A DNA stretch of 64,000 nt from Sipunculus nudus. Taxonomy: Eukaryota; Annelida; Sipuncula; Golfingiida; Sipunculidae. Under the pieces are notes generated by a model, which saw only the letters and a list, made by a program, of their open reading frames with translations, was not told the origin of the DNA and made no database searches. Shown piece by piece: positions 24,509 to 62,259 of this stretch (positions are counted from its first letter, which is position 1; the number at the start of each line of letters is the position of its first letter). A program made the position numbers and the translations under genes. The stretch is taken from the NCBI GenBank assembly GCA_026874595.1, contig CM049313.1, forward strand, positions 54,026,659-54,090,658. Reading direction: 5' to 3'.

Positions 24509-24625
24509 TCGCCATTATATACAAATATTGTTATTATAATACTGTGTGGAAGACCTTAGGGTAGTCATGGATTTGTATTCCTGGAACACCCGCACCTGGT
24601 GTCATGTCCAGTGACTGACCAATGG

Positions 24626-24725
24626 TCATTCTGATAACTGACTGCCCAGGGCTTGAAGGATGGCCTTCTTGTACCCTTCTCCTTCAGTATCTATTGTTTC
24701 ATCCCCATACTGACCATCCTCATAT
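24626..24725 (-). CDS. PARP6: PARP6/8 exon 17 (terminal, with stop)
   Basis: Begins after TATATACAG| and encodes YEDGQYGDETIDTEGEGYK and then KAILQALGSQLSE before TGA at 24626-24628. YEDGQxGD is conserved in vertebrate PARP6/8, and the C-terminal length matches theirs to within a few residues. Confidence 0.96.
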
Positions 24726-27700
24726 CTGTATATAAAATTGACATAAAATATTAATATTATGATATAACATGATCATGTATCTTCATCATATAAATCATAT
24801 ATGCTTCAGTTAATTATATGCATTAAAATAAATTGTCATATAGACTACATAATATAAGATATACGAGTTTACCTTAATTATGCAACATAAATACTTAACT
24901 ATATAACATAAAAGATAAATATACAGAACTATATCTTTGTGATATACAGAATATCATCATTAGAATCTAAAACGTTTCTCTGTAGTGAAAGTCATCAGTA
25001 GCAAATGCATGTATGTTAAACCTGTCAAAACTTTAAAACTCTACTGATTGACAAGCAGAGGAACTGGTGTACCTACAAAATGCTTAATAGATGCAACATC
25101 ATCTCAGATGTACTGTCACAAATTTGGATTGATTTATGCGTAACATAGAGTACATCGCTTACACAATTTATATAACATTATACTTATACAAAGTGTGTTA
25201 CCATACTTACACAAAGAAAAACCTTGTACAAACATAATCTGCATTAGGCATGACCCAGATACTGTGAGTTTTCCTCAACTCTGAGCTGTTGACCACTGAA
25301 AAACAATGAAGAATAAATATATGCTGAGTTCTATGCAGTTCATTTTGTACTTTAAGTGAAGTTCTAAAGGGCAATAGTATGAATGCACTGAATGCTGTAA
25401 TTTGTTCCTTGTTAAAGAGAATCATATGCTTTAAATTGTAAATAATATTCAGTAAATGATACGGAATCAAAGAATTTTCAAAATGTACAGGTCACTGAAA
25501 GTGTTATAAAAGTATGTCATTTTGTTAATTTTGCCTAACAATATTTTAATTACCAGAGTATGTCCCAACAGTAAAATTAATATAAATGAAAAAAGATTAG
25601 GGTATAGTTCAACGAAGTACTTAAACTGTCTATGAAACCCTAACTGTGATGATTTTCTGTTACCTTTTAAAAAGATCTACAATGTTGACAAAAAGAAAAC
25701 TGTTCCCTGAAATATTACATTCATTAAAGTATCTTAAATTTTATATGATGTTTCTAAGTGTCTTACCTTCACAGAGAGCTATACATGTTAAATTTGTACT
25801 CTTGAGAAAACGACTATAACTCTGCAAAATAAATAAAAAATACATTTGTATCATATTTATGTAACAATGAAACTAACAGTCAAAAATAGTTTTGTAAATG
25901 ATGATTAAATATTTTGGTTGGCTTTTTTGTTTTGTGGGGATTTCAATTTTTACAAAATTCATAAATGGGAAATTTTTACAAAACACAACATTTGTGGATA
26001 ACACGCCTCTACAAAGGTGAGAAGTCATTTATTGAGGTCGTTTTTCTATTCATGAGGATTTTAAATTTGTAATGTTTGCAAAAGGAAAAATTATCAAGAT
26101 AAAAAGTGGCCCATGGGCCATAATGCTCAGCTAATTTTGACTGGGTGCTCATTTCTTTTATTAATGTTAAATATTGTCTATGAGAATAGCCTATGGCTCA
26201 TGTTACTGTGTTGAAAAATTGACAGAAAATAAAAATTTTAGGATTCATAGGAGACCTGGCCAGGACCCCCCCCTAGATTTCACAATAGAGGGTTCCAAGG
26301 AAAATGGATACAATTTGACCCTGTGTGGGTGCTCAAAATCCTGTTTTCAGCCTGTAGGTAACAAAATATAGGTCACAATAATGAAATTTCAGGTTTCCAA
26401 GGAGATTTGACCAGAACTGCCTAGGATTTTGTGTTAGAAGATTCTAGGCCTTAAAGATACGATTTGTGCCTTGTCTATCTGGTAGCTCAAAACCATTTTT
26501 CAGCCTATAGGTTACAGAATATAGATCACCATGACCTTATTTCAGGTTTCCAAGGACATTTGTCTAGGACCTCCCTAAATGTCAGGTTGGAGGATTCTAG
26601 GCCAAATGGATACAATTTGTGCCCCATGCATCTGACTGTCACCATGACCTAATTTCAGGTTTACAAGGACATTAGCCTAGGACCTGACTTAATGTCATGT
26701 AAGAGGATTCAAAGCCTAATGGATACAATTTGTGCCCTGTCTGACTGATTGGGTGATTATGACTTTTTTTTCTATAGGTAAAAAAATAAAAGTCATGGTG
26801 ACCTATTTTCAGTTTTCCACAGACATTAGACAAGGATGTTTAAGAATGTTACATTAGAAGATTATAGGCCTAACAAATACAATGTGTGCCTTGCCTGGCT
26901 TTCTGGATGTTCAAAATCCTGTAGGTCACAAAATGTAGGTCACCGTGACTTATTTCAAGTTTTCAAGGAGATTTGCATAGAACCTCTCAGGATGTTGGGT
27001 TACAAGATTCTAGGCCTTAAAGATACGATTTGTGCCTATCTGACATTCAGGGTCATCAAAATCATGTTTTTTGCCTGCAGATCACAAAATATAGGTCAAC
27101 ATGAGCTAATTTCAGGTTTCCAAAGACATTTGTCTAAGACCTCCCGAAATGTTAGGTTGGAGGATTCTAGGCTTAATGGATACAATTTGTGCCCCATGCA
27201 TCTGACTATCTGGGTGCTCAAAATCATGTTTTTGGCCTTTAGGTCACAAAATATAGGTCACCATGACCAAATTTCGGGTTTCCAAGGAGATTTGACCAGA
27301 ACTGCCTAGGATTTTGTGTTAGAAGATTCTAGGCCTTAAAGATACGATTTGTGCCTTGTCTATCTGGTAGCTCAAAACCATTTTTCAGCCTATAGGTTAC
27401 AGAATATAGATCACCATGACCTTATTTCAGGTTTCCAAGGACATTTGTCTAGGACCTCCCTAAATGTCAGGTTGGAGGATTCTAGGCCAAATGGATACAA
27501 TTTGTGCCCCATGCATCTGACTGTCACCATGACCTAATTTCAGGTTTACAAGGACATTAGCCTAGGACCTGACTTAATGTCATGTAAGAGGATTCAAAGC
27601 CTAATGGATACAATTTGTGCCCTGTCTGACTGATTGGGTGATTATGACTTTTTTTTCTATAGGTAAAAAAATAAAAGTCATGGTGACCTATTTTCAGTTT

Positions 27701-30700
27701 TCCACAGACATTAGACAAGGATGTTTAAGAATGTTACATTAGAAGATTATAGGCCTAACAAATACAATGTGTGCCTTGCCTGGCTTTCTGGATGTTCAAA
27801 ATCCTGTAGGTCACAAAATGTAGGTCACCGTGACTTATTTCAAGTTTTCAAGGAGATTTGCATAGAACCTCTCAGGATGTTGGGTTACAAGATTCTAGGC
27901 CTTAAAGATACGATTTGTGCCTATCTGACATTCAGGGTCATCAAAATCATGTTTTTTGCCTGCAGATCACAAAATATAGGTCAACATGAGCTAATTTCAG
28001 GTTTCCAAAGACATTTGTCTAAGACCTCCCGAAATGTTAGGTTGGAGGATTCTAGGCTTAATGGATACAATTTGTGCCCCATGCATCTGACTATCTGGGT
28101 GCTCAAAATCATGTTTTTGGCCTTTAGGTCACAAAATATAGGTCACCATGACCAAATTTCGGGTTTCCAAAGAGATTTGCCTAGAAACTCCTAGGATATT
28201 GTGTATGATGATTCTAGGCCTCAATGGTATGATTTGTCCCAATCTGACATATGACAATGGATATACTCTGTGTAGGTACCGCATGATGAGGTCATGAAAA
28301 TGGAAACAATACAAAACATTGGAAAGTATAAAATGTGAAAATTTTAACCTGCAAACATAAAGCCAAACACAGTATATAGTTACCGTTTTTCCCCGTGGAT
28401 AATCCGCACTTTTTCTCCATGTAAATGAAATAAAAAACATTGGTGCGTATTATACATGGAAGCATAATTCCAAACTATACTCCCCATCACACTGGACATC
28501 GTTTGGTGGGCCGACGGTGAGTGATAATAAAGGATTTTATGCAAACAAAGTGTATACACACTGAACTTTATCAAATTAGGCATAAGAAAACATAATAATA
28601 GGTTTTATTTACTGTCATAATTTCAAATACTTAAAATATACCATTAATGTAGCTTACAGCCGAAGAATATTGATGATTTGTGAACTGAAATCTGCATGAC
28701 TGTGCATGGTTTGGCCGACTTCATTTAATGTCATTATCAGTTGGTAGATGGCGCTGTGCGCACCAGCACTGGGGTTGTTATACCGGGTCATTAATTCTCT
28801 TAGGAAATGATCCGTGATACACTTAAATACTTCCTAAACAAATTGAGCCAAGGAAGGAATAATTGCCTAGTGGTTCCTTTAGTTAATTAATTACCCTGTT
28901 TTGTACATCGTCATGGTCAGATTGATCGGCTGTACAAATTAATGTTATCACGGCCATGGTGTTATAATTTGATAACAAAGGTTGGGGATTTTTTTTATAC
29001 TAAACTATATATATATATATATATATATATAGAACATCATAGGTCATGCACTCTTGAAAGAAAATCCTTCATGTAGCGTATTGCACTGTAAAGATGAAAG
29101 ACAAACCACGGGGGCAAAGATCAAAGATTAAAATCAGGGCACCTCCACTTACGCGGATTAGGGATTTAGCAGGTCGTGTCAGTCTGTCACGTGGTCAGGG
29201 GAAGTCCAGGGTCTGCCCCAAGTGCCTAGAATACCAGGCACCGGCCAGGGTTCGGTAGTCGGTACATTCGCACAACAATAGAACAAACAGTGAGTACATA
29301 CAGGTGACCGCGACTTAACCCATGGGCAATCAACCGGGTCAGCGCTGGATAAACACGATGGCCCGTATTAGGCAGGTCAATTTAATAGTAATATATCACT
29401 TTGGTCAGAAAAACTCGTAATCTGTAATAGCCAGGTTGTCGTATTTCACAGCATTTATAAATTGATTAAATAACAGAGTTTCGAAAGGGACTGATATAAA
29501 ATGGCCGTAATTTGCTCGCAATTTACAGGTGGTTGTTCAGTATATTATATATTACTTAAAACAAGTACGTGTCAGTATAGCACACTTGACAGCACCTTTT
29601 TTTTACACTCGACAGCTTAAGGAGAATAACCTTTTTGCTATTTTAAGTGTAACTATCTGCTTCAAAGAGACTTGTCGGTCTGACTGGCAAAGTTTACCCC
29701 CACGGAGCCAGTGAACATTCGATGACTACGGCAAATACAAATTGTAGCATTCAAGATTTTGGCCAGAAGCAGGCTGCGTATTATACACAGGGTTATGTGT
29801 TTTTCCTGAGAAATTGTTGCTCTAAATAGGGGTGCGGATTATCTACGGTAGCGGATTATCCACGGGGAAAAACGGTAAATGGTTAAACTGATTTTTTTTC
29901 ATCCTAAATATTAAAGTGAAAAGTATTTCTGAATAAAGGAAAATTAAACTGGAAGAGTATCAACATTCTATGCATAGGTAAGAATTCAATACAGCAGTTT
30001 CAGCATGTGAAAATCATAAAAAAAGGTAAATAACAAAGGTTGCATGATACATTCAAGGATTCAGTTATACTGTCCAATAACAATTGCAGTGCTCCGGCAC
30101 CAGACACCTGCATAAACATAAGAATTTTACAAGACCACTTGCTTACTAAATATAGGAGTTTATAGGAAGTCAGCCAGGAATATACTAAGTTTTCACTGCA
30201 CCATGGTGTTTAACTTGGAAACTGTGAATTTCTGATTTTAAGTTGTACCACATATAGGTTGAAGTTGACTTTTGAAGGGAGAAATCAGTGACCTGTGATA
30301 TGAACTTACCTGTGAGCCTGGCTTGACCCCTCTTCCTCTGTTATACCTGGACCCCATCCCGGAATATGAGAATGAAAGACTAGCATGTGGGCTCAGGTAG
30401 ATGCCAGCTCCATACGCCTGACCGTGCACCTGGTGGGCTGTCCCAGAAGCATTTATCAGCCCCGTCCTGATAATCGAATGCCAGTTCTCCATGTGGGATC
30501 CACTGTAAGAATTGAACATAATCATAAGCAGGTTGCTTAATCATATATTCTACTTAAAAAATTATGACTACAGAGAAAGACAATGGGGAACTACATGATA
30601 ACGGTATATTTTGTATGTCAAAGCAATGCCCACCTGTTCTTGCAGAATATGTTTTTCAACTGTAAAGTTCACTTTAATAACATAAGTTACAAGGGAAAGT

Positions 30701-33700
30701 AGAGACATGAACCCAGTTTACAACAAGGGAATAAAACACCTAACTTTCCAAATTTTGAAGATATGAAATTTAATATAAATTTGAGTAGAGAGTCTATGCA
30801 GTCAACATTTCAAGCCAAGTTATAGCAGTTAAGATAATTGGCACATGACACAACAACTACATTTGGCAGCTGCTGATTGGATGATGTCATGTGCACACTC
30901 ATGTGCAAACTGACCATGCAGAGACCTATCTTATTTTTAAGATCATGGAAAAGAGTCTGAGAAGCAGTAAAACAGATCTCCTGAATGTGAAATTAAGTAT
31001 TTTTCCATTTGTTGTTTTCTATGTAATTATTAGTAATTTTTAAAAAAATATAAGGTTTAATGAAACTGATCTCCCTAATAGGTGGAACATTATTTAGTTA
31101 CTTTTTTACAGTAAAACCACAATTTTTCACCAATGTCTTCCCCTGATCATATCTGAATGGCTGAGGTAAGATGTCTGAAATTAGTTTCCAAAATAATATT
31201 CCTCTTGTGTTTGAAATGTATTATATATTGAGGCAATTTACTTCTTACCATCTACCTTCATCCATTAATTCTTATTTATATGTAACTCACAGAACAAAAT
31301 ATAATGCTGATAATAAACAGAGATACAGATAATATTTACAAAAAGGATTTTCATTTTTAAGAAATTGATATGACATGTTCAAGAAAATCTAAAAAAAACT
31401 TCTCTTAGTCTGCAGCTCATAAAACTTAATCATCTTTTCTTATTATTAAAGCAGATTATGATGGTGGTGTTAATAATTACATAAATACTTGATAAAATAA
31501 CAAACTCATTAACACATTTTAATGTTCTGAGGTGATTCAGGTGGTGATGGACAACATACTACAGATTACTTTCTCTCTTTAATATTTAAATTAATTCTTA
31601 ATGTTAAACGTGACTTAGAGAATATAACAATGTCATTTTTTCACATTATGCATATTGTACATCAGTATTTTATATATACTTCAATAGTATGCCCATAAGT
31701 GTTATATATGTATTAAAAAAAATAAAAAATAATAAAACTAGATATAGTATCCCCAGATAATTAATTCTCCCATCCCTCTTTCAAGAAAAGGCCCCATCTT
31801 CAGCAGAATAAACTGACATGCACTTGGCAAAGCGACCATGGTTTTTTCCATCAATCAACTTGAGAAACAATATTTTTCACCAAATATGGGAATATTCAAA
31901 GTCAAGGCCACTCTCAAAGGAGAGGTCATGATCCCAATTTAAATATACCTAATCCCATAACCCATATCTATGTATATGCATGAAATGAAAGAAATCTGTC
32001 CATAAGGTTTTGACTTAAAATGTTCACAATACTGTTAGGTGGCAATGATCGGGGTATTAAAAGGCACAAAAACATGGAAAGTATAATAGTAGGGTTTGAC
32101 CAGTTTCCGGTACATGACATTGCTATCCAAGAACTTTGAATTTAGGATCCATGAAAGATTGCTTGAGATATTTAAGAATTTGTGTGATTTTCCGCCAAAA
32201 TGGACCTTTTCAAAGTCAAGGTCACTCTCCTAGTAAAGGTCATGACCCCATTTTTAAAGGTTTCATCCTCTCACTCATATCTATGCACATGTCAAGTGTG
32301 GTAAAGATCAGTTAAGTATTTTATGAGTTACACGTAAACAAGATCTGCAGTTGTGGCTGCGGCGGTGTAGGGACCGACATAGTTTAGAATCCCCCAACTT
32401 TGTCTGAGGATACAAAAAATATTAACTACTACTAGTTATCATTTATCATGAGTTGAGATAAGGCTGTAGGTTTGTATTACAGTAGTTATATGACCACAAA
32501 AGACTTCATACTTAAGGATTTGAGCGCCCGTGGTATCTAGTTATCTGTGTCTTAAAGAGCTGTATGAGTGATACCATGTGTCGTTTTATGTATGATACTT
32601 TACCACAGACAGAGGGTATGTATGATCTGTGTGTAGCACTGACTGGAAAGCAAAGATGCTGCCATGCTGTGCCTTGGCCTGTCTGAACGCTGCCTCTTTG
32701 GCTGGAGGGCTGCTTAGTAACAAGAACTGGTGAGGTGTTCTCATGAACCAGAGTTGCTGGAACAAAAAGCATTACTCATGTTATAATAAATATATGCCTA
32801 TATATATTAGGGCTAACATGCCTCAAAATTAAAACGTATATGGCATTTTACAAATATATTATATATATTTTTAAACTACATTAAATTTATATTTACAATT
32901 TAAATGTGACACTCTGGTAATTTTGTGATGTCTATTTCTATTTAAATGACAAAATGTAAAAATTTATTCTTCATTTCTTCAAACTTAAAAAGATACAAGT
33001 TTCATATTTTCATGATTTTAGGATTTCTAAGATTATATACAAACTTAATATAAAGAAACAAAATAGAAACTATTAATTTTTAAAAAGCCATAAATCAGAG
33101 AAAAAAGGTAGAAAATGTATAGTAATCCACAATTATTGTCCATACACAAATATCTTCACTTATTTTCAAGCTGTAAAAAAATTGTTACATTGCTTTTTCA
33201 TGGCTTTTTTCATGGAAAAAAATTCTGAAAGGACCTCATTAATGAAATTAAACATACTGTCCATATCCATCGTCATGAACTGATAAGAATATTCAAAGGG
33301 GTATAAACCCTGAAACTGAGTAAAAAAAAAAAGAAAAGGTATAAGTGATTTTTTAATTAATGTGTACCTTTTCTGGAGGTAGTTTTACTATATGAGACCT
33401 ATTGCTGGAGATAAGCCACTGTAACAATGGATATGCGAGTGTGTCAGCCTCATCCAGCGTCCGCTTCAGGTTCTGACTCCGAAGCTGAGTCATCTTGCTC
33501 ATTGCAGGAAACGCCCTTAGCACCTGTTCTACTCTGCCAAAGTTTTTGTCCTGTTAGAATGTAAGGCCAATATCAGCACATGTAATATATGTAAGATGTA
33601 GACTGGGATAAAAAAATCAATGTATATCTCCTAAGGTAGAAGTAAACATGTAAAATTTTAAAACTGTTTGACTTTACTACTGGACATCATTAAAGCTATT

Positions 33701-36700
33701 AGTTTATTTTCTTCAGGCACAAGAAGATGACATACAAAATGCATATGCTGGACTTCCAGCTAATCAATACTCCTTTCTATTTCAGTCTAGATTTATATTA
33801 TTCTGCAAACCCAATATAAAATCATTATGAGTATATAAAGGTTAAAAGCACACAAGCATTTGTCATATGCACATGTATCAAATTGTGTGCCAGACACTTG
33901 GACACATTTATTAACAGTATATATATTTCTGTAAAACCTACCTTTGGAGACAGAGCGAGATTTCGGGTATTTTTGGGGTCAACTATACAGGGGAAAGGTT
34001 CAAAGATAATCTTTCTTCTGTGGGACTGGCAGGCAGCCTTTGCCATGGCAATCAGCAGATCAACAACCTGAAATCACAACAAATAATCTGTAAGACAATG
34101 TGCTAATATTCAGCTGAACTTCAGTGTACAAGGTCCCCAAATAGCCAAAACAAGGGGTTTTTTGATACCTCTGACAAAATACCACAAAACACAAATTTTA
34201 AGCCAACAAGTGACACCATTCAGTGAATAATAATCTGTTGAATATATCTATGCAATATTGTATCATAATTATATGAAATTAAATTGAACAAGAGAATGTT
34301 TCATGTTGCAGTCTGTTCACTGGTAGACACAGAATGGGAATGGTGCTGCCCCCTGGTGAAGCAAGTCAATATAAAGCTAAGCCTTCAAACTTTCTGTCAG
34401 GTGTACAAACCGCTGGCATTAAATTATTTATAATTCACAGATGAAAGTATATCAGTTGATGCCAATCTTTCGCTTCAAATTTGAAGGTACTTTTGTTTTG
34501 TGGTAATTCATCACAGGTCCCCAAAACACTGGTGTTTTGGGTGTTTCAGGGAACTCAGTGTATAATATGCTCGCATCAATATGTCATTAAGTGTATGTTT
34601 GTCTTCTAGTATCCTGATTATTCAACAGTTTTTACCCCTTTGACACACAAATTGGTTTTAAAATGTCTAGTCACTGTAGTTTATCAAATTCTAAATCATA
34701 CATTCATATGGGCATGAGAGGCTTGCTGATATTCTCATCATTATCACAGGCAGCATCAATGAAGATAGCGTCCACTTTATATGTGAATCACTGTATCAAT
34801 ATGCTGACAAAAAGCATAAGTGCTTGTACTAAGACTTGTTTTTGCTTCAAAACTAGTTCTGAACACTCTTATAGTGTCAAAGTTTAAACTAATTTGCCCT
34901 GAGAACATTCTGAATCCACCTCCTGCGCAGGATTCAAACCATTTCAACTGGGACAGACTGGAAGTGCTTTGGTTTGGTATCTGCATGCTAAATTTGCATC
35001 CAATTTGGTTTGAATTTGGTTTGCTGAGACTTGTGAAAGTGATATTTGATCACCCACTTTTAATAGAACACAATGACTGCATATACATATATTTTTAAGT
35101 CTGTCTGGTACAAGTCTTAGAAACCTGTTTCCTTTTCCCACTCTCCAAACTGAGTCATGTTACACTGAACATTATTCTGTATTGTACTGTTCTGATGGAT
35201 AAGAAAAACACAAAAATACTGTTGTTACTCTGCATTCAAGGAAAAAATATAAACTTGGTAAAGAAACAGCAGCCTGTCTAAAAAGTAAGAAAAAAACATA
35301 AATCCCAAAGTGAGCAATCTTGTATTTAAACAAGTTTATAACTTAAGAATGGTAATCATGTGAATTTCTTAAGATTTTGATGATATACTCTATTAAAACA
35401 TCAGTTAATATTAACAAATGTCCACATGAACAAAATATTAAAAAAAAATTACATCAAATATATTTAGATTTAGTTTACAAAAGGTTGAATTTTTTAAAAT
35501 TAATGCTTCTGTGAGCAAACTGTTTTACCTCAGCACCAGTTGCAATATCATCAGCAGCATCTGACATCACTCCTAATGTGGAGAAGGCAAAAACACAGAG
35601 CTCCCGGGCACACACTGTGGGCTGCAAAACACAAATAACAATTATAAACACAGAGCTCCCGGGCACACACTGTGGGCTGCAAAACACAAATAACAATTAT
35701 AAACACAGAGCTCCCGGGCACAAACTATGGGCTGCAAACCACAAATAACAATTATAAACACAGAGCTACCGGGCACAAACTGTGGGCTGCAAAACACAAA
35801 TAACAATTATAAACACAGAGCTCCCGGGCACAAACTGTGGGCTGCAAAACACAAATAACAATTATAAACACAGAGCTCCCGGGCACACACTGTGGGCTGC
35901 AAAACACAAATAACAATTATAAACACAGAGCTCCCGGGCACACACTGTGGGCTGCAAAACACAAAATAACATAATTATAAACACAGAGCTCCCTGGCACA
36001 AACTGTGGGCTGCAAAACACAAAATAACATAATTAAAAACACAGAGCTCCCGGGCACAAACTGTGGGCTGCAAAACACAAATAACAATTATAAACACAGA
36101 GCTCCCGGGCACAAACTGTGGGCTGCAAAACACAAAATAACAATTATAAACACAGAGCTCCCGGGCACAAACTGTGGGCTGCAAAACACAAATAACAATT
36201 ATAAACACGGAGCTCCAGGGCACAAACTGTGGGCTGCAAAACACAAAATAACATAATTATAAACACAGAGCTCCCAGGCACAAACTATGGGCTGCAAAAC
36301 ACAAAATAACATAATTATAAACACAGAGCACCAAGGCACAAACTGTGGGCTGCAAAACACAAAATAACATAATTATAAACACAGAGCTCCTGGGCACAAA
36401 CTGGGCTGCAAGACACAAAATAACATAATTATAAACACAGAGCTCCCAGGCACAAACTGTGGGCTGCAAAACACAAAATAACATGTATGATGCATATCTA
36501 TGATAAGGCAGTTGTCTGGTACTTTCCTATAAGATTTCAACAGAATACAAGTATCCTTGGGGTCACCCTGGTTCAACCAATACTGGTTAAGACAGAGTGG
36601 TTATTACAAGTTGTTGCTAACCACAACATGTCATCTCTGGTAACCTACCAATGTGACCAAATTATTCCCAATTCTGTGTGGGCAAACTCAAAACCAAAAA

Positions 36701-39700
36701 ACAAAAGGTACTTAATAATCTCCCTATTTATAGGAACTCACTGGGTGAGACCTAGTATGGGCTAACAACTGTAATATTTAACCCTGCACCTCCAATGTAC
36801 CTCCCACTACCAAGACATGCACACTAACCATCGAACCATGAATACATTTTGTGAAGTGTAATATGATTTCAAATTCTTAACATTTTTTGCTACTGAGGTG
36901 GCAGAGTTCTGCAAAGTTATCAACTTTATACAGATATCATACTGTATTATAAACATATCATGAATTTAACTTTAACAAAATGAACAATAATTTTTTGGAA
37001 CTTTCTTACCTTTAACATACTACTGGTTTCAAATAGATGAGGTTCATCACATACCACACAGAACTCGTTCAATGTAGATAACCTTCTCATAGCATACCTC
37101 ATGATCTAAAAAAACAAACCACACAGAACTCATTCAGTGTACCTCATGATCTAAAATACAAACCACACACAACTGACTCAATGTAGATATCCTTCTCATA
37201 GCATACCTTATGATAAAAAAAACAAACCACAAAGAACTCATTCAATGTACCTCATGATCTAAAATACAAACCACACACAACTGACTCAATGTAGATATCC
37301 TTCTCATAGCATACCTCATGATCTAAAATACAAACCACACACAACTGACTCAATGTAGATATCCTTCTCATAGCATACCTTATGATCTGAAATACTAACT
37401 ACACACAACTCACACAGTGTAGATAACCTTCTCTTAGCATACCTCATGATACAAACCTCACAGATCTCAATTAGTGTAGAAATCCTTCTCACAGCATACT
37501 CCATGATCTGATAAACAAACCACACCACACTCATTCAATGTAGATAACCTTCTCATACCATACCCCATGATCTGATAAACAAACCACACCACACTCATTC
37601 AATGTAGATATCCTTCTCATAGCATACCTCATGATCTAAAATACAAACCACAAACAACTGAATCAATGTAGATATCCTTCTCATAGCATACCTTATGATC
37701 TGAAATACTAACTACACACAACTCACACAGTGTAGATAACCTTCTCTTAGCATACCTCATGATACAAACCTCACAGATCTCAATTAGTGTAGAAATCCTT
37801 CTCACAGCATACTCCATGATCTGATAAACAAACCACACCACACTCATTCAATGTAGATATCCTTCTCATAGCATACCTCATGATCTAAAATACAAACCAC
37901 AAACAACTGAATCAATGTAGATATCCTTCTCATAGCATACCTTATGATCTGAAATACTAACTACACACAACTCACACAGTGTAGATAACCTTCTCTTAGC
38001 ATACCTCATGATACAAACCTCACAGATCTCAATTAGTGTAGAAATCCTTCTCACAGCATACTCCATGATCTGATAAACAAACCACACCACGCTCATTCAA
38101 TGTAGATAACCTTCTCATACCATACCCCATGATCTGATAAACAAACCACACCACACTCATTCAATGTAGATATCCTTCTCATAGCATACCTCATGATCTA
38201 AAATACAAACCACAAACAACTGAATCAATGTAGATATCCTTCTCATAGCATACCTTATGATCTGAAATACTAACTACACACAACTCACACAGTGTAATTA
38301 ACCTTCTCTTAGCATACCTCATGATACAAACCTCACAGATCTCAATTAGTGTAGAAATCCTTCTCACAGCATACTCCATGATCTGATAAACAAACCACAC
38401 CACACTCATTCAATGTAGATAACCTTCTCATACCATACCCCATGATCTGATAAACAAACCACACCACACTCATTCAATGTAGATAACCTTCTCATACCAT
38501 ACCCCATGATCTGATAAACAAACAACACAGAACTCATTCAATGTAGATAACCTTCTCATACCATACCCCATGATCTGATAAACAAACCACACCACACTCA
38601 TTCAATGTAGATAACCTTCTCATACCATACCCCATGATCTGATAAACAAACCACACAGAACTCATTCAATGTAGATAACCTTCTCATAGCATACCCCATG
38701 ATCTGAAATACTAACTACACACAACTCACACAGTGTAGATAACCTTCTCTTAGCATACCTCATGATACAAACCACACAGAACTCATTCAATGTAGATAAC
38801 CTTCTCATAGCATACCTCATGATCTGAAATACTAACTACACACAACTCACGCAGTGTAGATAATCTTCTCTTAGCATACCTCATGATACAAACCTCACAG
38901 ATCTCAATCAGTGTAGAAATCCTTCTCACAGCATACTTCATGATCTGAAATACTAACTACACACAACTCACACAGTGTAGATAATCTTCTCATAGCATAC
39001 CTCATGATACAAACCACACAGAACTCATTCAATGTAGATAACCTTCTCATAGCATACCTCATGATCTGAAATACTAACTACACACAACTCACACAGTGTA
39101 GATAATCTTCTCTTAGCATACCTCATGATACAAACCTCACAGATCTCAATCAGTGTAGAAATCCTTCTCACAGCATACCTCATGATCTGAAATACTAACT
39201 ACACACAACTCACACAGTGTAGATAACCTTCTCTTAGCATACCTCATGATACAAACCTCACAGATCTCAATCAGTGTAGAAATCCTTCTCATAGCATACC
39301 TCATGATCTGATAAACAAACCACACAGAACTCATTCAATGTAGGTAACCTTCTCATACCATACCCCATGATCTGATAAACAAACCACTCAGAACTCATTC
39401 AATGCAGATAACCTTCTCATACCATACCCCATGATCTGAAAAAAACAAACCACACAGAACTCATTCAATGTAGATAACCTTCTCATACCATACCCCATGA
39501 TCTGATAAACAAACCACACAGAACTCATTCAATGCAGATAACCTTCTCATACCATACCCCATGATCTGAAAAAAACAAACCACACAGAACTCATTCAATG
39601 TAGATAACCTTCTCACACCATAACCCATGATCTGAAAAAAACAAACCACACAGAACTCATTCAATGTAGATAACCTTCTCATACCAAACCCCATGATCTG

Positions 39701-42700
39701 ATAAACAAACCACACAGAACTCATTCAATGTAGATAACCTTCTCATATCATACCCATGATCTGAAAAAACAAACCACACAGAACTCATTCAGTGTAGATA
39801 ACCTTCTCATACCATACCCCATGATCTGATAAACAAACCACTCAGAACTCATTCAATGCAGATAACCTTCTCATACCATACTCCATGATCTGAAAAAAAC
39901 AAACCACACAGAACATCATTTAATGTAGATAACCTTCTCATACCATACCCCATGATCTGAAAAAACAAACCACACAGAACTCATTCAATGTAGATAACCT
40001 TCTCATACCATACTCCATGATCTCATAAACAAACCACACAGAACTCATTCAATGTAGATAACCTTCTCATACCATACCCCATGATCTGATAAACAAACCA
40101 CACAGAACTCATTCAATGTAGATAACCTTCTCATACCATACCCCATGATCTGAAAAAACAAACCACACAGAACTCATTCAATGTAGATAACCTTCTCATA
40201 CCATACCCCATGATTTGAAAAACAAACCACACAGAACTCACTGAATGTGGATAACATTCTCATACCATAACCCTTGATCTGAAAAACAAACCACTGAGAA
40301 ACCTGTCAAATTATAAAATAAAACAGTAAAGAATTTAAATGGAAATTTTTGGCCCCTGTGGATTTGAATTAAACATAAAAACTTACCATCACTAGGAAGC
40401 CGTATTCTAAACCTGGTACTCGTTTGGAATCTTTTGGGTGTCCTGTCAAGGGGAAAAACTTCTCCTCTTCAGAAGCTTTGGGCTCTTTTTGACTCCCCCA
40501 CAATGTAAATGGGCGGAGCTTAAAACCTGCTTTAGGTTTAATGGCAGCTTTGGGAATGGACTGTTGTCTGGAAGGTCGTGGGGGTCTTGGAGGTCGTTCA
40601 GGGGTCATGGGTGGTGAACCTGAATCTTGGTCAAGAACTTGGGCTGCACTGTTTTCATGGGCTGGAGATCTGGAACTAAGTGTGAACAAGTAAACTTTAA
40701 TAATTATTGTAATAAAAGGTCCCATGAAAATTTATTTTTCTTTCAACATATTTGTAAACTAAAATACAGGTAGTCCACAAGCGACTACAAGCATTGGCTG
40801 AAATCAGAGTGGGACAAGTGAAGTGAGGCATTGATTGAGTGGCAAGGGGAAATAGAGTGAGATGTGTTGCATATTAGCATGGATTTTTGCCACATTAGCA
40901 TGATTGTAGGTGAGGCCATCTGTTACTTGAAAGAGAAAGTTATCCAAGAAGTATACATATACAAAATTTGGGGTGGATACAAGTCAAACCACTGCTGAGA
41001 TATGAGTGATTTTTACCCTAGGCAGATGAACAGATGGACACAATGAAAAAATGGTTGTAAGTTTGGCCACCAAATTTGTAAGAGCTGTAGAGCTATGAAA
41101 GATCTATACTCATGCAAAATTTCAGGCTGATATGTCAAACCAGTCCTGAGACATAAGGATGGATGTCTGCAGCATAAATGTGAATTTAGGTGGCGCCTCC
41201 CGCCACAAACTCAAGAAAGCTATCTGAAATGTATACATAAGCAAAATGTTAGGCAGATAAGTCAAACCACTGCCGAGATATAAGTGATTTTATACCACAG
41301 CAGACAAACAGATTGAAGCTGTGCAAAAATTATCGCAGGTGGTGTTGATAAAGAGCTATATGAGATCTAAACACATACAAAATTTCAGGAAGATAAGTCA
41401 AACTAGTCCTGAGATATTAGCATGGATGTCTGCAGCATTTACATGAATGTAGGTGGTGCAACCTTTCATAAAATCAAGAAAGCTATCCAGGATGTATGTA
41501 CATGCAAATTTTCAGGTGGATAAGTCCAACCACTGCAGAGATATGAGTGATTTTAACCCAAGGCAGACAAACAGATGGACACTGGCTGCAAGCAGTGCCA
41601 CCAGCTTTTTTGTATGATATAAAGCGATCCAAAGGCTACACTTGTGAAAATTTTAACCAGTTTGTTCAAATGAGTCTCAAGATATGTGGGTTAATGAGTT
41701 AAAACAAACGCACAGATGGATGCTCTGCACAGAGTAAAGGTCCGAGGTCAATTCAAAACGGATAGGCACAAGTTCACATGTGACCTGATAAGGGCTCAAG
41801 TTTTGGAACAAGGAACCCATGGGTCACCGCGCACAGCTCAAGTTTGAAATGTTTGCAAAATATTATATTGTAATGTTTTTCATATATATATAAGCATATG
41901 AGAAGCTAAGAGGAAAGGGACCCTCCTACTTGGTTATAGTAATGTTCTAAATATATGATTGCAAAACTAATACTCTGACAAGACTATCATGAAGAAAAAC
42001 AGTTAAAGTTTGAGATACTGTGATGCATATGAAAAATTAACAGATGGACTGGCAAGTGGACAGAATGAACTGATACCTTTCTTTTACTCTCAAGAGAATA
42101 ATGTATTTAAGTTTATATTACAGCCTATTTTTTTAGCATGTCCACTTTTTCCATTAAAAGTTTTTATCAGATTCATTTTTTTTATTTACAAGTTTCATAA
42201 ATTTGTAATAAAAAATCTAAAAATATAATTTAAAATATATATCCATATATATCCAGAGTGTAGCTCATATCAGGTCTTATTATGCATACACATATATTTT
42301 ATTATTTTCAAAACACAAATGTTAAAACTGAATTTAAAAGAAAATAATGCCACAACATGGCATCTTCAAGATTATTCCTTGAATCACTATTCAAAAGTTT
42401 TGTTCATTGGAGTTTTCAGTACATGCTTTCAGTACTTTCAGTACATACATTCATCGAAATAAAAGATTCAGTAAATTTGATAGAATAAAAAACATGTTTT
42501 TAAATAAGTATACACACTGTTGGTTGAATGAGAGACAAATAATTACTATCTCAGCTATAATTTATGACTGGAATTATTAGTCTAATTCACATGTGGTGAA
42601 GTTTTTACTCTTCTTTAGTATGGAATTCCTTATCTGATGAACATCCACACTTTCATAGCAATACACCACATTGTGGACACAATTAAATGTGCACTTTAAT

Positions 42701-45700
42701 CATTGTAACCCTGGTGGTACAATACAAAATCTAAAATGTAGCATAGCCTAGAAAAAGAATGAATCAAATACAAAAAATTATAACATTCATTAGTTTATGC
42801 ACCATCTGGGGGAGGGGAGTGCAGGGGAGAGGGGAAGCCTGCCGCAGTAGTAATGGCCAAGCTGAGCCAAGGCAAGCTGCCTGGAGTGGGTTACATAACA
42901 CAAGTGAAGGCTGTACTACTAGGTGGGCTTGATGTTAACAACACTTAACATGGTGTATGAAAACTTGAATAAAAGCGACTCTTTTCAACCAATTCCTTTG
43001 AAATTTCAGATTTTAAAAGATTAAATCCTTATGTACATATGCTGTGAAAATTAAATGAACAGTGCTTACAGGGAAAAATCATGCCGTTGCCAAAGTTTGA
43101 CAAAATTTAAGGTACTGATTTTTTATTCATGCTAATAACTTTAAAAATTTTGCAAAACTAAGATCTAATTTTAGATAAAAAATTGAATCTTGATTTAATA
43201 AAGTTATATTCCTGAAAAAAAGTCTCCAGCTCTCCAGCTTCAGCTATTCTCATGTTAAGTGAGTAAATATATTTCCTGATTTTTTTTAAAAATTGCATTA
43301 AGTTTGGGCCCATAACTTCAAAACAATACTCAATACTGATATAATTTTTGGTATATCTATAGAGAATGTAAGGAAGGATATGCATACTAAATATAATCAA
43401 AAACAGATCAGAGGTTTAGATATTAAGCAACCTTGAAGTGTAAAAATGGGGTTTTAATGGAAAACGGAGGTTTTTCCTAAATAACTAGAATGAACGACCC
43501 AATTTTTGGTATGGTAAGAGATTTTGGGCGCATCTAACTGTATGCAAAATTTTAGATTAGTAGGCCCAATGATTTCAAAACCCTGCCATGTTAACTGACA
43601 GACGGATGGCCGGACAGACAACAGACAAAGGACCATGACTAAAGCTCAGATGACAATTAGTCTGCTGAGCTAAAAATTGGTCCAGTGGTCTCAGAGGAAA
43701 TCTCCAGAAATGACGGCGGCGGCGCAGGCAGCAGAACCCAGTCAAGAACACAGTATCCACACAACTTTGTTTTGGCTGATGAAAATATAGCAGATAAATA
43801 AATAACACAGTGATATTTATTTTAAGGTATTTAGGTTATTTTTTTTTAAACTATGGATGGCTGATATGCAATCACATGGATGTATTTGTACCTGAACACA
43901 AACAAAATAATCACCAAAGCATTTCAATACTGAGCAAGTCAAAGCACAATATGAAAAAAAGGAAAACTCATACAGAGACCATGAAGAGAGAAAACCAGAA
44001 AAACAAAGGATCCAAACTATTTCAAATGCATGTGAAACTGAGAGTAAAAATGCAAGTAATGCAACAAAACACAATATATGTTCAGGGTCTAATCACTGAG
44101 AAACATAAGAAAAAGTATCTGTGCTTCAAGACAGTGCTGTCAATTCAGTATAAGTGCTAGAATGCTACTAGTGTAACATTTGTTGAGTCACTATGAGGAA
44201 TAACTTAACAATTCAAGGCATGATATGACAAGATTTTTATCATAAAGCATATGATTATGTTTGTAACGAGAAAAATTCAATGGCAAGCTTACATTTCTAG
44301 TCAAAAGCTGATGTTTTACAATAAGCTTACTGTTCTCATCAGTATAACATCATATTTTATGAAAACTTACATGGTCATCTATTGAAATATATGTAATGTT
44401 TAAGGTCCGGTTGCTTGCATTTCTACTCATATATCACTGTAAGTTAAGTTTCTGGTCCGGCAAGATCACATTTTACAGCCTGATCATAAAATGACAATAT
44501 TTAATTGCTTACTTTTCTTGAAATGAAAATGTAATATATAACAGTAAGCTCACATTTCTGGTGATGACAAAATACTTTTTAACTGTTAGCACATAATTTT
44601 GGTTAGGATTAGATATATATTATTAACTGTAAGCCAATCTTTCTGGTCATAACAAGATAACTCATTATGGCAAGTTGACAGTTTCTGGTGGTGACGAGAA
44701 AATATTTTACAGTGTGCTTACTTTTCTGGTCATGACAGGATAATGTTCTACTGTGAGCTTACATATCTGGTCATGACGAGATGATATTAAACAGTAAGCT
44801 TATATTTCTGATGGTAACAAGCTACTAAAATATTTAACAGTAAGCTTACATTTCTGCTTGGGTCAAGACAACATTACACAGCAAGCTTACGTTTCTGACA
44901 AGATTAAATTTACAGCATCTTCTTCCTCCCCTCTGGTGATGGTTAAAGCGTTGCGGGCCATACTTGTACTGAAGCCCATACCGACTAACTTAGCAATTGA
45001 CGAGTCCTTGATTTGAAAACCTTCAGATGACTCGGGTACACTTTGTGGTGTCCTCTCTTTCGGTGTAGAACTGTGGCATGCAGATAGTCATTATCAAATA
45101 GAGTTCATAGATGTCCATCCCATATTCATTGTGACTGCATGCGAATAGTCATTATAAACTATAGTTTATATATGTCTATCCTATATTTGTTATAATTTCT
45201 GCTTTTTTTATTCATTAACTGCATACAGCATTATGATCCTCACTGGTATAAGGTACTATATTCTAATGGAATGCAGACTGGCATGACATTGTGCATGTCC
45301 AAAAGTAATTTTTTATAATTTTAGTCATCATAACACTAGCATTTTTCAAACCTAATTAGAGTACTACACAACTTGATATAATAGAAAGTACCAACATGAA
45401 CATGTATTCAGACTTGGGTGTTGATGAGATAGGGGACCCACTTTCTTTTACATGCATGCTCAAGATGGAAGAATTTTTGTATGAATCAGCCAGTGAGCCA
45501 TGCTGCTCCAACTGTGAAGGACATCCAGTTCCAATGAAGGAAACAGTAGGCAAAAAATGTTGTATCCACAACAAGTTTGACATGGCCCTAATCCAAAACA
45601 AGAGCATCACAATGCCTAAGGTTTGTGTGTCAAGATACTTTTAATGTGGCCCTTAATGTTATAATTTTTAAGACTTCAAAATAAACTATGTTCATATATT

Positions 45701-48700
45701 GTTAAATTCTAATAAATATTAAAAACTGATAGGTTAAGTTCAGGTGTCTCCATGATTTCATGTTCAATATTTCTACTGTGAAAGTAATTTTCACAAATAA
45801 ACGCCTGGTGGAACGACTATTCACCCTGGACTCATCAAATTCTACATACAATTAAGATGTGTGTGCAAAATTATGCAGAATACACCATTTTTAATTGTGA
45901 ATGCTTCTGATTTAAGCAATATGTAAACATGAAATTCAGATCTGAATAAAATGCCTCAGACTTATAAACTTTTCACCATCAAATGAAAATCAGCCAGGGT
46001 TTTTTGTTAACTTCCTAATATCAATGTGACATTAAAAAATTTGACAGCATGCACATTCAGAGTTAGACGGAGAATGAAATGTAACACTTCAGTTCAAACA
46101 AGCATTCAGTTTCAGTGGGCATGTAAGGGTTCAGACAAGCATGTTTGTCAAAAAGGATGAACAGATAAATGTTTACTGTTTGCTGATGGTAGTGTACCAG
46201 TAATACATATCTGTAAATATTAACCGTTATTAAAAAAAGGCATTATCTACTAATTTTTTTGGTAGTTGTAAGAGTTGTATTAATATTTAACTTATAAATA
46301 ATTATATAAATGATATTTTAGTTTACTCCATCAAATGAAAATTTCAATGTTCTTCCCTATTTATTTCTCTATATTAATATTCACTACTGCAATATTCCTA
46401 AGAATATAAATAAAAGTTTACTTTTTATGAATATTAATACTTACTACGCCTTATGAAGATTAAAAATCACCTTTTAATAACATTAACATTTACTGCTCTT
46501 TACAGTAACTAGCGACCATGGAAAACTTTGACCTCTTATTTCTCAGGTTTCATTTTGTATTCTGCCTTATTTACTTAAATACCATGATGACTTATTCAAT
46601 ATTGAACAACTGAGTTTAGTATGTACTTGTATACTGCCAAGGAATGAGCCTTTACATCATTATAGAAATTCTACACAATTGAGACTGACTTCAGAATATC
46701 CTATTTACACTATGAAAATCAAGGATGGTTAGTGTCTATAATCAATTACATAAATTAATATATATATTTTGTTGATAGTATTTCAACTACATTGATTTTA
46801 AAAAATAGAATGGTGTTAAAAGGCCCCCTTAATAGTTTTGCATGTCACGGCAGAGATACATAGAAATCTACATGCACATGTCACACAGCAATCTTGAAAC
46901 ATATATATTCAATATCATGATACTAGTACGTCTATTTAAAAGGATTCTGAACATTTCTGACCCTATGGATGAAGTGTTTCATCTCATGTATCTAACAACT
47001 ATTCAATATATTCATGATGAAAATGTTCTTAATACCTATAATATCTTAAAAACTTGGCACTGGTGCAGTGAAACCTGTGCCATATGACCATCCTTGGAAC
47101 TGTAATAAAAGTGTTTTTAATTCACGGGTGGTCTAATTAAACAGGTCAGGGTATACCAAGGGTGGTCATTGTAGGTAGGTGGTCTTGAGAGGCAGATGGT
47201 CTTTAAGACAGGTTCCACTGTATATTCAAAACAATTATAATCCATCTGTATTGCTTTGGTGATGTGGCAGTTCATTTAATCAAAAACAATTTAACAACTT
47301 CAACTTTAAAATGTTACTCAAGGCTACTCTTACAATTTCTTTAGACATCTTAAAATGAAACAATTTTAACAGTCTACATCCCATGTTAACATACTTTGGA
47401 GCTGTAGGCGGAACTCTGCGCTTCTTTGACACAGCTGCAGGCGTGACCTTGTGGGTCGGTGACCGTAATGATTCCACATGTTGGTTACTTAAGCTTTTCC
47501 ACTGATCAACGATAAAATTTTCAAGAATCCTAAAACAAAGAAAATAAATCAAAATTTGAATTTGACTAAACTAATTTTAATTTTTTTTTACTGAAATTAA
47601 GAGCACTTCCAAGGGAGAAATTAATGAGCTAAGTAGTTTCTTATAATTATTTTAAAATAAATTCATATAATATTGTGGTAGGCATGTGAATTGACTGAAA
47701 TGATATAATGCAGGTGTCAGTTAAAAGGCATATATAATATTTGTCAGGACACAGAGAAACATAGTTTTGGATATACTGTACTTAAAATATATTTTGACAT
47801 CATTGCCATAGTTTCCTCTGTTTATAACTATCATATCCATAAAAACTGATACAACATGTACTCACTTTCTCATCTGACTCCCAACACCAAATTTTTCCTT
47901 TTGACTTGGCTGAAATACTTCCACTTTGGGTTCTGAAAATTAAAAGAAATATATATGAACACACACACACATACACACACACATATATATATACATATAA
48001 AACTAGATGTGGTCGGACAATGGTCCTCAGGGGGCCCTGCGTTTCTTTTAGTGCTGGACTAGTTTACATATGGGTGAAAAATTAAGTTAAATTTGGAAAA
48101 TATGACAAACAGGAACAGGTTTTAATCAATATGCATGAGGGAAAAAATCCTAATGGATCAAATGATATGAAAGAAGATATGTCTGAAATAATGTGTGCAA
48201 TAGAAAAACACCGACTGTAGTCTGTTAGCCATATTTGATTTAGAGCAAGTCTGTAATTCAATAGGTCTGAAGCCCTCATAGGCATGAATGATCCCTGGGA
48301 AATTGGGAAAACTGCAGTAGGTTGCTGTTTAGTTATCAAGTGCGAAAGAAAATCAGCAATCGGGCTGTGGCAGCAATTTTGGAATTCCAACAGGTCTGTA
48401 TTTCATTAGGTCCAGAGCCCTTATAGGTACCAACCATCCCAGTAAATTTGGGAAGGCTGACATATGTTGTTGTTGAGTTATTGTGTGCGAATGAAAATCA
48501 GCCATTTGGCTGAATCCGGTTATAGTGACACAGTGATCACTTTAGGGCACCGCTTAACAAGCTGAGCCCTAATAATGAATGCAAATTACTATTTCCACAT
48601 CTCCAGGAAAAGAGGTAAAACTAGATTTTCCAAGATATTCAAGGACCTAATATAGATTTTCAATTAACAAATTATGCTGTAAAGTTTTTCCCAAGCTTTC

Positions 48701-51700
48701 TACACCACTCATCAAACCATAATTTATCTTTTGGCAATCTATATGTAACACTGGCATTCAGATATTACAGGTCTGAAGACACCCTAAAAATTAAAAAAAA
48801 TGTGCAGATTTATTTCTGTAAATATTTAAGTTTACTCTGCAGCTAAAGATTAAAGAGGCTGAGGTGCAAACACTAAATGAAGAGTTTAAAGGGTCTTCAA
48901 GGCCTGACTCTTAAAGAATTTTAATCCCATGATTTACATGTTACCAACACCAAAATAACATGTACATGAAAAAAAGTGGAATCTATTCTTTCTGTATTAC
49001 ATTTACCTGATGCATCCAGGTAACGAGACAGACTCATGTGGAGACGAATAACCAGTGGTTCTTGTCTCTTTATCCTCCAGGCATTAGCAACCTCACCCTG
49101 GAAGATAAAAATCGCTCCTTCCTAGAAACCTCAGGGTTCTCTTTGCATTCACAGCATTCTGACAGACATACCTGATATTACCAGTAACTTTTTACAAATG
49201 AATCTATATTTCTAACAGTCATCACAAAGCACAAATAAAATTTAACAAAACTGCATACCACGTATCTCTTAGGTCTATGATACCCAATAACCAGGAATAT
49301 CACAAAATATGACAGCTGCAATAATCATATTGTTAACTTCACTATTATCATGACATCATGATGTGTTTTTGTCCATAAAATCTCTGGGATAATTTCTTTG
49401 AAATATTGAACAATTAGGTTGAATGATTTTGGAAAAGAAGGTTTTCAAAGGTATTTTAGCTTTTCACCCGTAAAATATAAGTTGATGCAGGTGGTTGCAC
49501 ATAAAGCTCAATTCCTCATCATTTGACATGTGACTGACTTTTGCATGAAATTTGGGGATGCTAGCTTCTGCTAGTCCTGCGTAATTTTGGGTTAATGTAC
49601 TGATGACTGATGATCCTTGTACAAAAAGGTCAGGTGGTACCACTAATACCTAAATTTCAAATATGATTCATGTGACCAATATTTCAAAATAATTTGGTGA
49701 TGATAGCTCCAGCCGTTTCTTAGATTGTAATTTTAGTATGCATTTTTGGCCAAATGACCAAGTTCAGCTTCCATGACTTGGCCAAATATCCCTGAACTGA
49801 AACCAATAGAACAAATTTGAGAAAGATTGTGTCTGGGATTATATCTGTAAAATGTTGAACAATTTGGCTGGATGGTTTCAGAGTAGCAGATTTTTTTAAC
49901 TTTTTTTAGCTTTTCCCCATTAAAATCCAAATAAAGGCAGATGGCAAAAACAAAGCAATAAAAAAGAGTGTTTAGATGACTGATTTTTTACATTAAATTT
50001 GGTTATGTTTGCTCCTGCTGTTTTTGAGATGGCATGGGTTAACTTTAGGATGATGGATGGCGGCAGATTGACAATGCTGTGCCATCGCATAAGCTCACAG
50101 GTTCACTAATAATCTAACAAGAACTTCACTACCTCAAAGCTGTTCTTAAAAAAAAGTATGGCATCATGAAATTCAGCTGCTAGAAATGATTCCTTTTTAA
50201 AAAGCAAACTAAGGTGAAGGTGTTATACTGATACTGCTGTATCTGTCAGTAGTAAATTAACTATATTAATTGCAAATAACTAGAAATTTATTGAAGAAAA
50301 CAATTTTTTTTATTAAGGTAACATCAGCATCAAAATTTGGCTTAAGTTACTAAAGAGCAGAAGCAAATCTATTGACGCAGATGTGCACACAGTGGGTTTC
50401 ATTTTACACATTTTACATGTATACTGACCAAAAATGACTGAAATGCACACTCACCAAAATTACCTGGATGAGCCATCTAGTGCATGAACTTGCTCTTTTA
50501 ATTGCTTATTATAAAACTCTAAGCAGGAACATAAGTTCATCTTTAGTTAATTCCTAACATCAAAATGTTAATCATAATTGTTTAACAAAAAAATAATATG
50601 TACACTTACATCAAGGAATTTCATGTTGATCTTCAATTCCACATCAATGTCATCAATTGTCTCAAACATTCTGGGAGGCAGGGGTAAAAGCAATATATAA
50701 TTTATAATAAAGTTATATACTTGTATGCATTATTTAAATATTTACTTAGCATATTGTTTGGATGATGCACTTTGATACACACTGCACTTTTACTCATATG
50801 ACCCTCATTTTTAAACACATATTAAACTTATGGGTATATTATAATATGTCTGCACTGATAAAGAGGAGCTGGGTATATACTCATGTATCAAGCAAGATAA
50901 CTATATTTAATTGTGCCAACCAGGGTTACTTAATTTTGGAAGAAGTAGATTCTCAGAAGTTGTTAAGAACAAATCCAGCAAAGGGAAAAGCTGTATAACT
51001 GTAGAACTGTATAATTGTTATCAGGTGACAGGTTCTGGCTGTAATAGGAACAGAACTCACCTGACTTCAATGGCGTCAGTAGAGTATCTTTCCCGCACCA
51101 TCTCAATGTCATGTTCCAGGAGGGGATGAATGGTCTCAGCCTCACCAAGGCCATACTGTAACAGAATATTTATTTTGTGTTCTAAATAAATAAACTTAAA
51201 ATAGCACTTGCCAAACTCTAATGTTTGAATCACACACTATATACAAATAACTTGTTATATCTTGTGATGAAAGGATATGTTTATAACATCATTGATACAC
51301 CATTGTGGAAGATGGTGCTCACTTTAATTTATGTAAGAATGTAAATTATATAATGATAAGAGGTTAGAATACTTCAGACAAGACTTACATTATCCAAGTG
51401 AACAAATTTTTTATAAAAGTATTTCATTTGGATATCCCATCTGAATTACAAATTTCTTGGTACTGATAATTTTTTTTATATAAAATTATATAATTTTGAA
51501 AACCCATTTGAAACTAGAATATGGGTAGTTGACAAGTGACTACGTGTATCGGCCAAATCACAGAGACATGGGTAAAGTAAGGCATGGAATGTTCCTGACA
51601 TGACAGGACTCCAGATTTGTGGCATCAGTGATGCCAACTGAACTTCTAATACATATATGCAAATATTGTCACCTAAAACCAATCTACAGATTGATACACC

Positions 51701-53801: not shown

Positions 53802-54059
53802 CTATTCAAGGTAGAAAAGGATAATAAACTTAAATACAATCTTTAATATACAATGTTAAAGAAATGCCAAACAGGTTTTATTTATTTATATAGCTAGGTG
53901 CCCCTTTACTGGCACCTTTATTTAAAACTAAATGTGGAACTCTCTGTAATGATGATATAAATATTGATAATGTTTAACACTAAGCCATTATAACTCAAGC
54001 ACTGGTTTCTGGGAACACACAGTGGGAATTCCCCTGGGAATTTTTCTCCATATGCTGTT

Positions 54060-62255: not shown

Positions 62256-62259
62256 AGTT

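Follow-up and report, generated by a model that had tools for sequence, protein, structure and literature searches.

Why do three consecutive introns of one gene each carry a tandem array whose repeat unit is built from the splice site of a neighbouring exon? The question is raised by a stretch of 64,000 nucleotides from Sipunculus nudus (assembly GCA_026874595.1, contig CM049313.1, positions 54,026,659 to 54,090,658; hereafter the window), which carries a PARP6/PARP8-type gene on its minus strand. With a probability of roughly 0.75, we regard the arrays as minisatellites of the type called mirages in amphioxus, which would have arisen by duplication across splice sites, expanded and been tolerated, as by-products that lengthen introns. 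The exons of the gene are colinear with PARP6 in a tblastn search with an approximate human PARP6 query, and Pfam places a PARP catalytic domain (PF00644) on exon 14 and a UBA domain on exon 7. All 32 exon edges were placed by hand using the splice consensus. The genome assembly comprises 1.43 Gb in 153 contigs. The features in question, in window coordinates and in the order of transcription, are the following.

24560..53842, minus strand: PARP6/PARP8-type gene, 17 exons modelled from exon 1 near 53842 to exon 17 near 24560 (tblastn, Pfam, hand-placed edges)
44891..45070, minus strand: exon 7 (UBA domain), whose donor end is the source of array 3
44285..44890, minus strand: array 3, with which intron 7 begins; some dozen decayed copies of a unit that measures about 41 bp and holds the end of exon 7 and the GTAAGC donor
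40387..40675, minus strand: exon 8, hand-placed edges
37106..40290, minus strand: array 2, 51 copies, each with the acceptor and the initial 50 nt of exon 9; fills about 97% of intron 8
37010..37105, minus strand: exon 9; the anchor copy of array 2 lies in its first 50 nt
35622..36488, minus strand: array 1, about 62% of intron 9; 15 copies of 55-58 bp, each with the acceptor and the initial 30 nt of exon 10
35529..35621, minus strand: exon 10; the anchor copy of array 1 lies in its first 30 nt

An earlier note on this DNA had claimed that introns 7, 8 and 9 each hold an array seeded by the edge of exons 7, 9 and 10. Both Tandem Repeats Finder (TRF) and a unit-by-unit reading confirmed this, and the exon numbers and limits given there were exact, 35529-45070 running from the end of exon 10 to the start of exon 7. 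With a hyphen marking the splice boundary, the unit of array 1 (TRF row 35591-36483, 55 bp x 15.9) reads ...TTTTGCAG-CCCACAGTTTGTGCCCGGGAGCTCTGTGTT... and comprises the last ~25 nt of intron 9, the AG and about 30 nt of exon 10. Array 2 (TRF row 37248-40294, 64 bp x 48.4, with more rows from 37049) repeats ...TTTTTCAG-ATCATGRGGTATG...TTCTGTGTGG, the exon-9 acceptor and about 50 nt of exon 9. In both arrays all copies, 15 and 51 respectively, precede the true edge. The units of array 2 are mostly 64 or 57 bp long, with a few of 44-45 bp, and TRF detects higher-order periods of 249 and 313 bp. Intron 8 measures about 3,280 nt, and just ~100 nt of it lie outside the array. The acceptor AG is kept in every copy of array 1 and in 40 of the 51 copies of array 2.

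Array 3 is strongly decayed, its copies showing an identity of about 0.6 to the anchor. It extends well past its TRF row (44682-44810, 41 bp x 3.1): 8 blocks totalling 477 nt, or about 12 unit lengths, were found between 44285 and 44874 when the block threshold was set at a score that the remaining DNA of the gene attains once in 19 kb. The donor dinucleotide has an identity of 0.78 in this array. When the exon-7 edge was compared with a hand-made unit of array 3, a score of 36 was obtained, against a maximum of 29 in 5000 shuffles and of 24 in 5000 other 50-mers of the gene. A comparison of all 32 edges with their surroundings led to the same three exons, as the acceptors of exons 9 and 10 stand out (85 and 100), the exon-7 donor stands out weakly (32) and the other 29 edges score 17-29. 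The control for these scores is not clean, with 57 of 200 random 50-mers of the gene scoring at least 50 and falling in its repeats. Copies of the edges of exon 8 were searched for in its surroundings and none were found. Exact copy numbers rest on one assembly and one haplotype, a 551-base stretch adjoining array 1 having a single match there. The three arrays are real, and all the testable features of mirages are present in them. Within the window alone, the case against chance is modest, with three arrays picked out post hoc, and it is the genome sample described below that carries it.

As a separate observation, many copies of array 2 (37106-40290) carry a donor-like G(A/G)G-GTATG 8 nt past the acceptor. 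The unit could in principle serve as an 8-nt microexon or as a recursive splice step.

The earlier note knew of no named class of such repeats. Tandem repeats across exon-intron boundaries have, however, been named mirages in amphioxus, and two reports describe them in Adh3, the globins BflGb6 and BflGb9, troponin C and PGBD5 (PMC3087553; PMC3902484). According to the same sources, mirages occur at 5' or 3' boundaries, many of their copies retain AG or GT, their units measure 10-72 and 150-160 bp, and the BflGb6 mirage has 6 and 3 copies in two haplotypes (PMC3087553; PMC3902484). They are said not to disturb regular splicing (PMC3087553). The likeness to the arrays of Sipunculus is close. Here, too, the unit spans the exon-intron boundary, in arrays 1-3 as well as at the ten other edges described below, and both boundary types are affected, with acceptor arrays at exons 9 and 10 and a donor array at exon 7. 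The units of about 41, 55-58 and 57/64 bp fall within the range of about 10-160 bp, and many, though not all, of them keep the AG or GT. In contrast to the amphioxus cases, the host is not a cephalochordate; we treat the taxonomic range of mirages as a record of finds and not as part of their definition. The myosin of the host resembles that of molluscs, the top eight PDB matches of three joined myosin exons being squid and scallop chains with a lead of 19 bits over the following match; a single exon is not discriminating (191.9 compared to 190.8 bits). A haemocyanin search gave no match, and neither did its controls. The arrays can also be larger (51 copies, compared to 6 and 3 in the BflGb6 haplotypes), and a frequency, 10 of 294 edges, has been measured. 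Among the openly licensed papers listed in literature searches, no report of mirages outside amphioxus or of a genome-wide mirage rate was found. What is new here is a host outside amphioxus, the array size and an initial figure for their frequency.

This frequency was obtained from 147 exons with 294 edges of four unrelated families in the same genome, taken regardless of repeats. The best 30 of the 75 myosin-head matches listed and the best 30 of 68 for HECT were taken with 1500 nt on each side (long loci). The best 70 of 126 kinesin matches and 17 of 55 UCH matches, the latter drawn from 37 that had been selected as containing no more than one stop, were taken with 250 nt on each side (short loci). 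Ten of the 147 exons (10/294 edges, 3.4%) carry an array whose unit holds the splice junction together with exon sequence, as judged by TRF and by eye. They are distributed as 1 of 30 for myosin (L034), 1 of 30 for HECT (L060), 6 of 70 for kinesin (L085, L109, L114, L118, L122, L135) and 2 of 17 for UCH (L139, L143). Donor arrays are found at L034, L060 and L143, and acceptor arrays at L085, L109, L114, L118, L122, L135 and L139. The same arrays occur at two exons beside sampled ones, in L017 and L028.

TRF alone gave 9 of 147 exons with an edge-crossing array (L034, L060, L085, L114, L118, L135, L139, L143 and L150). By eye, L150 was dropped, its unit showing no clear exon sequence, and L109 and L122 were added, where the arrays run up to the true start of the exon, which lies outside the profile match. 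Arrays that adjoin an edge and are confined to the intron (L077, L093 and the acceptor side of L143) were left out of the count. An automatic re-test asked whether the 40 nt around the predicted junction recur in the adjoining intron with a score of at least 28. It was positive for 11 of 290 predicted edges, compared to 0 of 3480 comparisons with other loci; nine of the ten exons judged by eye were recovered, L150 and L023 were added and L109 was missed. In L139 and L143, the re-test placed the junction on an array copy. The UCH exon in L143 has arrays on both sides: the one adjoining the acceptor is intron-only (46 bp), and the one at the donor is a mirage with a period of 81 bp.

Together with the three different seed edges in the PARP6/8 gene, the recurrence at 10 of 147 sampled exons elsewhere in the genome supports the common process that had been proposed behind the arrays. 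A special status of the gene itself is not supported. With 3 of its 32 edges affected, there is no significant excess that would call for a gene-specific cause (P = 0.094 at a rate of 10/294, 0.056 at 8/294). The PARP6/8 gene is an ordinary carrier of a class that recurs in unrelated genes for kinesin, myosin, HECT and UCH proteins.

The junctions of arrays 2 and 3 suggest how such arrays may be born. The unit of array 2 is flanked by the direct repeats GTGGTtTGT in the intron and GTGGTaTGT in the exon (GTGGTnTGT), and that of array 3 by TGCTGT in the exon and TGCTGT in the intron. To judge from these letters, the breakpoints would fit slippage or microhomology-mediated duplication, and at these two births the suggestion of slippage made earlier is in keeping with the short repeats. 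In a first step, a tandem duplication between such short direct repeats, one intronic and one exonic, would copy the segment that spans the splice site. Unit variants and higher-order periods point to a second step, in which slippage and unequal exchange would expand the array and partly homogenise it. In a third, the array would be tolerated: the spliceosome would take the copy that runs on into the complete exon, most probably through exon definition, and the remaining copies would leave with the intron. The copies of array 1 at 35676, 35896 and 35951 share GTG with exon 10 (35621), whereas GTT, which likewise encodes valine, stands in the twelve remaining copies. Array 1 and the coding exon 10 have therefore exchanged sequence or were copied from each other. 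Two of the 15 upstream copies are identical to the true exon-10 edge over the whole unit, and the choice of the true acceptor must consequently rest on wider context, which would most simply be the complete exon with its donor.

Seeding at edges is apparently more frequent than in intron interiors, and we asked how far this holds. For a question of origin we hold the count of births to be the right one, with the small numbers of one genome, judged partly by eye. An edge can sit just in the terminal, exon-joined unit of an array, whereas an intron point can fall in any of dozens of copies. Expected births were calculated from array density and unit lengths in 171 kb, where non-mirage arrays cover about 4% of the non-exon bases. 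With a TRF score of 50 or 90, 10 births were observed at the 294 edges compared to 1.3-2.0 expected (P 5e-5 to 9e-7), and with a score of 120 or 200, 9 were observed compared to 0.9-1.6 (P 4e-5 to 7e-7), so that births at edges lie 5-8 fold above expectation. Such an excess may reflect a splicing- or transcription-linked hotspot. Alternatively, it could be one of persistence, with coding selection keeping one copy constant.

A motif search in the genome, with counts taken among the matches listed, points in the same direction for acceptors. Over the first 8.49 Mb of contig C1, three TTTTNCAG in tandem mark 9 distinct arrays, and the reversed motif marks 3 in the same 8.49 Mb and 11 in 67.5 Mb. 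The background ratio of the acceptor motif to its reverse is 36:22 in the window after masking and 158:88 once the loci are included. Raw matches show the opposite, 2655 compared to 3461 for the reversed motif, with long arrays dominating. A different motif pattern was uninformative, with 259 matches compared to 700 for its control. For acceptors, the array counts are no more than suggestive. The same search returned a very long acceptor-like array at G000:C1:8484789-8487869, again among the matches listed, with a unit of about 44 bp that reads TTTTTCAG-GTATGAAGAGCATGGGGAGTGAC.

Several observations weigh against the account given so far. Base coverage does not set edges apart: of 120 pseudo-edges set at a distance of 100-1200 nt from the exon match, 3-9 fall in repeats, compared to 11 of 290 edges. 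Of these pseudo-edges in repeats, 1-2 lie in mirage arrays of the ten, and another version of the pseudo-edges gave 7 of 149 in repeats. The birth excess is found mainly in the short loci (8 of 174 edges, P at most about 4e-5, likewise when the background is taken from these loci themselves), and in the long loci alone, with 2 of 120 edges, it is not significant (P 0.09-0.20). The donor motif shows no excess among the matches listed, with 11 arrays in 147.8 Mb and 1 compared to 3 for the reversed motif in 7.57 Mb; raw donor-motif matches number 1032, compared to 662 for the reverse. Outward growth from the exon is not supported as a general rule, as the order of copies shows no common direction over eight arrays. 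With increasing distance, copies become less similar to the anchor in array 1 (rho -0.71, p 0.003) and L028 (rho -0.77, p 0.027) but more similar in array 2 (rho 0.50, p 0.0002); the other five show no significant trend. Over ten arrays, splice dinucleotides are somewhat better kept than other positions (0.958 compared to 0.915, p = 0.049), which could hint at use. Finally, that the exon-attached copy is the site actually used is something we infer.

Pure chance is the alternative that survives best. It holds that minisatellites arise anywhere in genes and that those spanning an edge are tolerated equally well, with no preference for edges. The 4% of non-exon bases covered by non-mirage arrays and the similar proportions of intron points and edges in repeats agree with it, as does the count in the long loci. 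In intron 8, where so little sequence is left outside the array, overlap with an edge is unsurprising. That the excess of births is carried by the short loci strengthens chance further and weakens the reading of edges as birthplaces. Counted as births, however, 10 arrays stand against the 1.3-2.0 expected, and we consider chance rather unlikely as the whole explanation. Random overlap with exon edges at the same rate had been named beforehand as an outcome that would refute the earlier interpretation; in this test the births exceed expectation, but base coverage at edges equals that of introns. We accordingly give only tentative credence, clearly short of an even chance, to the stronger proposal that satellites of this lineage are truly born at exon edges, with splicing- or transcription-linked seeding, or re-seeding from the copy kept perfect by coding selection, several times above the rate elsewhere.

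A selected function is less probable still, and we consider it improbable. In this case the copies would act as decoys or concentrators of splice sites that slow splicing, or as poison acceptors that tune PARP6/8 expression through nonsense-mediated decay. The dinucleotide is present in every aligned copy in 8 of 10 arrays, which, together with its slightly better conservation, speaks for such a role. Furthermore, splicing to a decoy would shift the frame or bring in a premature stop, which a poison site requires: when upstream acceptors are joined through to the normal donor, 0 of 15 at exon 10 and 0 of 40 at exon 9 give an in-frame, stop-free extension, and read-through past the exon-7 donor meets the TAA in GTAAGC immediately. 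On the other hand, 11 of the 51 copies in the largest array lack the AG, array 3 is strongly decayed and the class is found in unrelated genes. Over ten arrays, exonic and intronic parts of the units have the same identity (0.913 and 0.914, p = 1.0), which we read as an absence of coding constraint on the copies, and the dinucleotides would be at most a faint hint of splice-site constraint.

An artefact of assembly or sequencing at a repetitive locus is very unlikely. The arrays are known from one assembly, with a single match for the flank of array 1, but the copies differ from each other, array 2 has higher-order periods and the same anatomy is seen at ten other exons. Least of all do we believe in the variant protein linkers that had been suggested between the UBA and ART domains, with array copies spliced in to lengthen this stretch: that the copies carry acceptors and exon sequence is the sole point in favour, and since any of the 55 upstream acceptors would break the frame or add a stop and exon-7 read-through stops at once, this reading is refuted for upstream acceptors joined to the normal donor.

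Mirage-type minisatellites as by-products of duplication, expansion and tolerance can also be set beside other known systems. The minisatellite of human IFI6 (6-16) sits at an exon end. It provides several splice donors, as the title of Turri 1995 states, and repeat units are described as being used as donors (PMC4526556). Array 3 likewise is a minisatellite with several copies of a splice donor; in IFI6, however, downstream units are used and give isoforms, whereas here read-through of exon 7 would stop the protein immediately. Tandem duplication of DNA with splice signals, as in the Rogers model, potato RdRp and human internal tandem repeats, is described as a route by which boundary repeats may form novel introns (PMC2812944; PMC4974935). 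The duplicated segment carries splice signals in both situations, but in Sipunculus existing introns are lengthened and no new intron was seen. In polyubiquitin UBC, a dual-specific splice-site array with tandem repeats delimited by splice sites has been described (PMC10809524). Repeats delimited by splice sites are common to both; coding units are spliced in UBC to vary the number of monomers, whereas here no upstream acceptor keeps the frame open.

Other repeats and genes were observed in the window apart from the three arrays. In intron 14, a repeat block at 26331-28249 is seemingly doubled with an offset of about 885 bp, with identical TRF rows at 26526-26737 and 27411-27622 and near-identical open frames of 159 amino acids at 26830 and 27715, and appears to be a recent segmental duplication. 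A C-type lectin gene (Pfam Lectin_C) has exons on the minus strand at 10134-11043, past the point where the PARP gene ends on its 3' side. Further tandem arrays outside the PARP gene are located at 7253-8292, 15410-15684 and 62255-63433.

If the sampled rate holds, about 1 exon in 15 of this genome would adjoin an array of its own splice site. Such arrays would provide natural experiments on how the spliceosome chooses among locally identical sites, and in intron 8 one way in which introns lengthen can be seen directly. They also make it possible to test whether the mirages of amphioxus are widespread among animals. Should exon edges indeed be birthplaces of satellites in this lineage, very many introns would have grown longer through copies of their own splice sites, and the splicing machinery of the animal would routinely have to choose one site among dozens that are locally near-identical.

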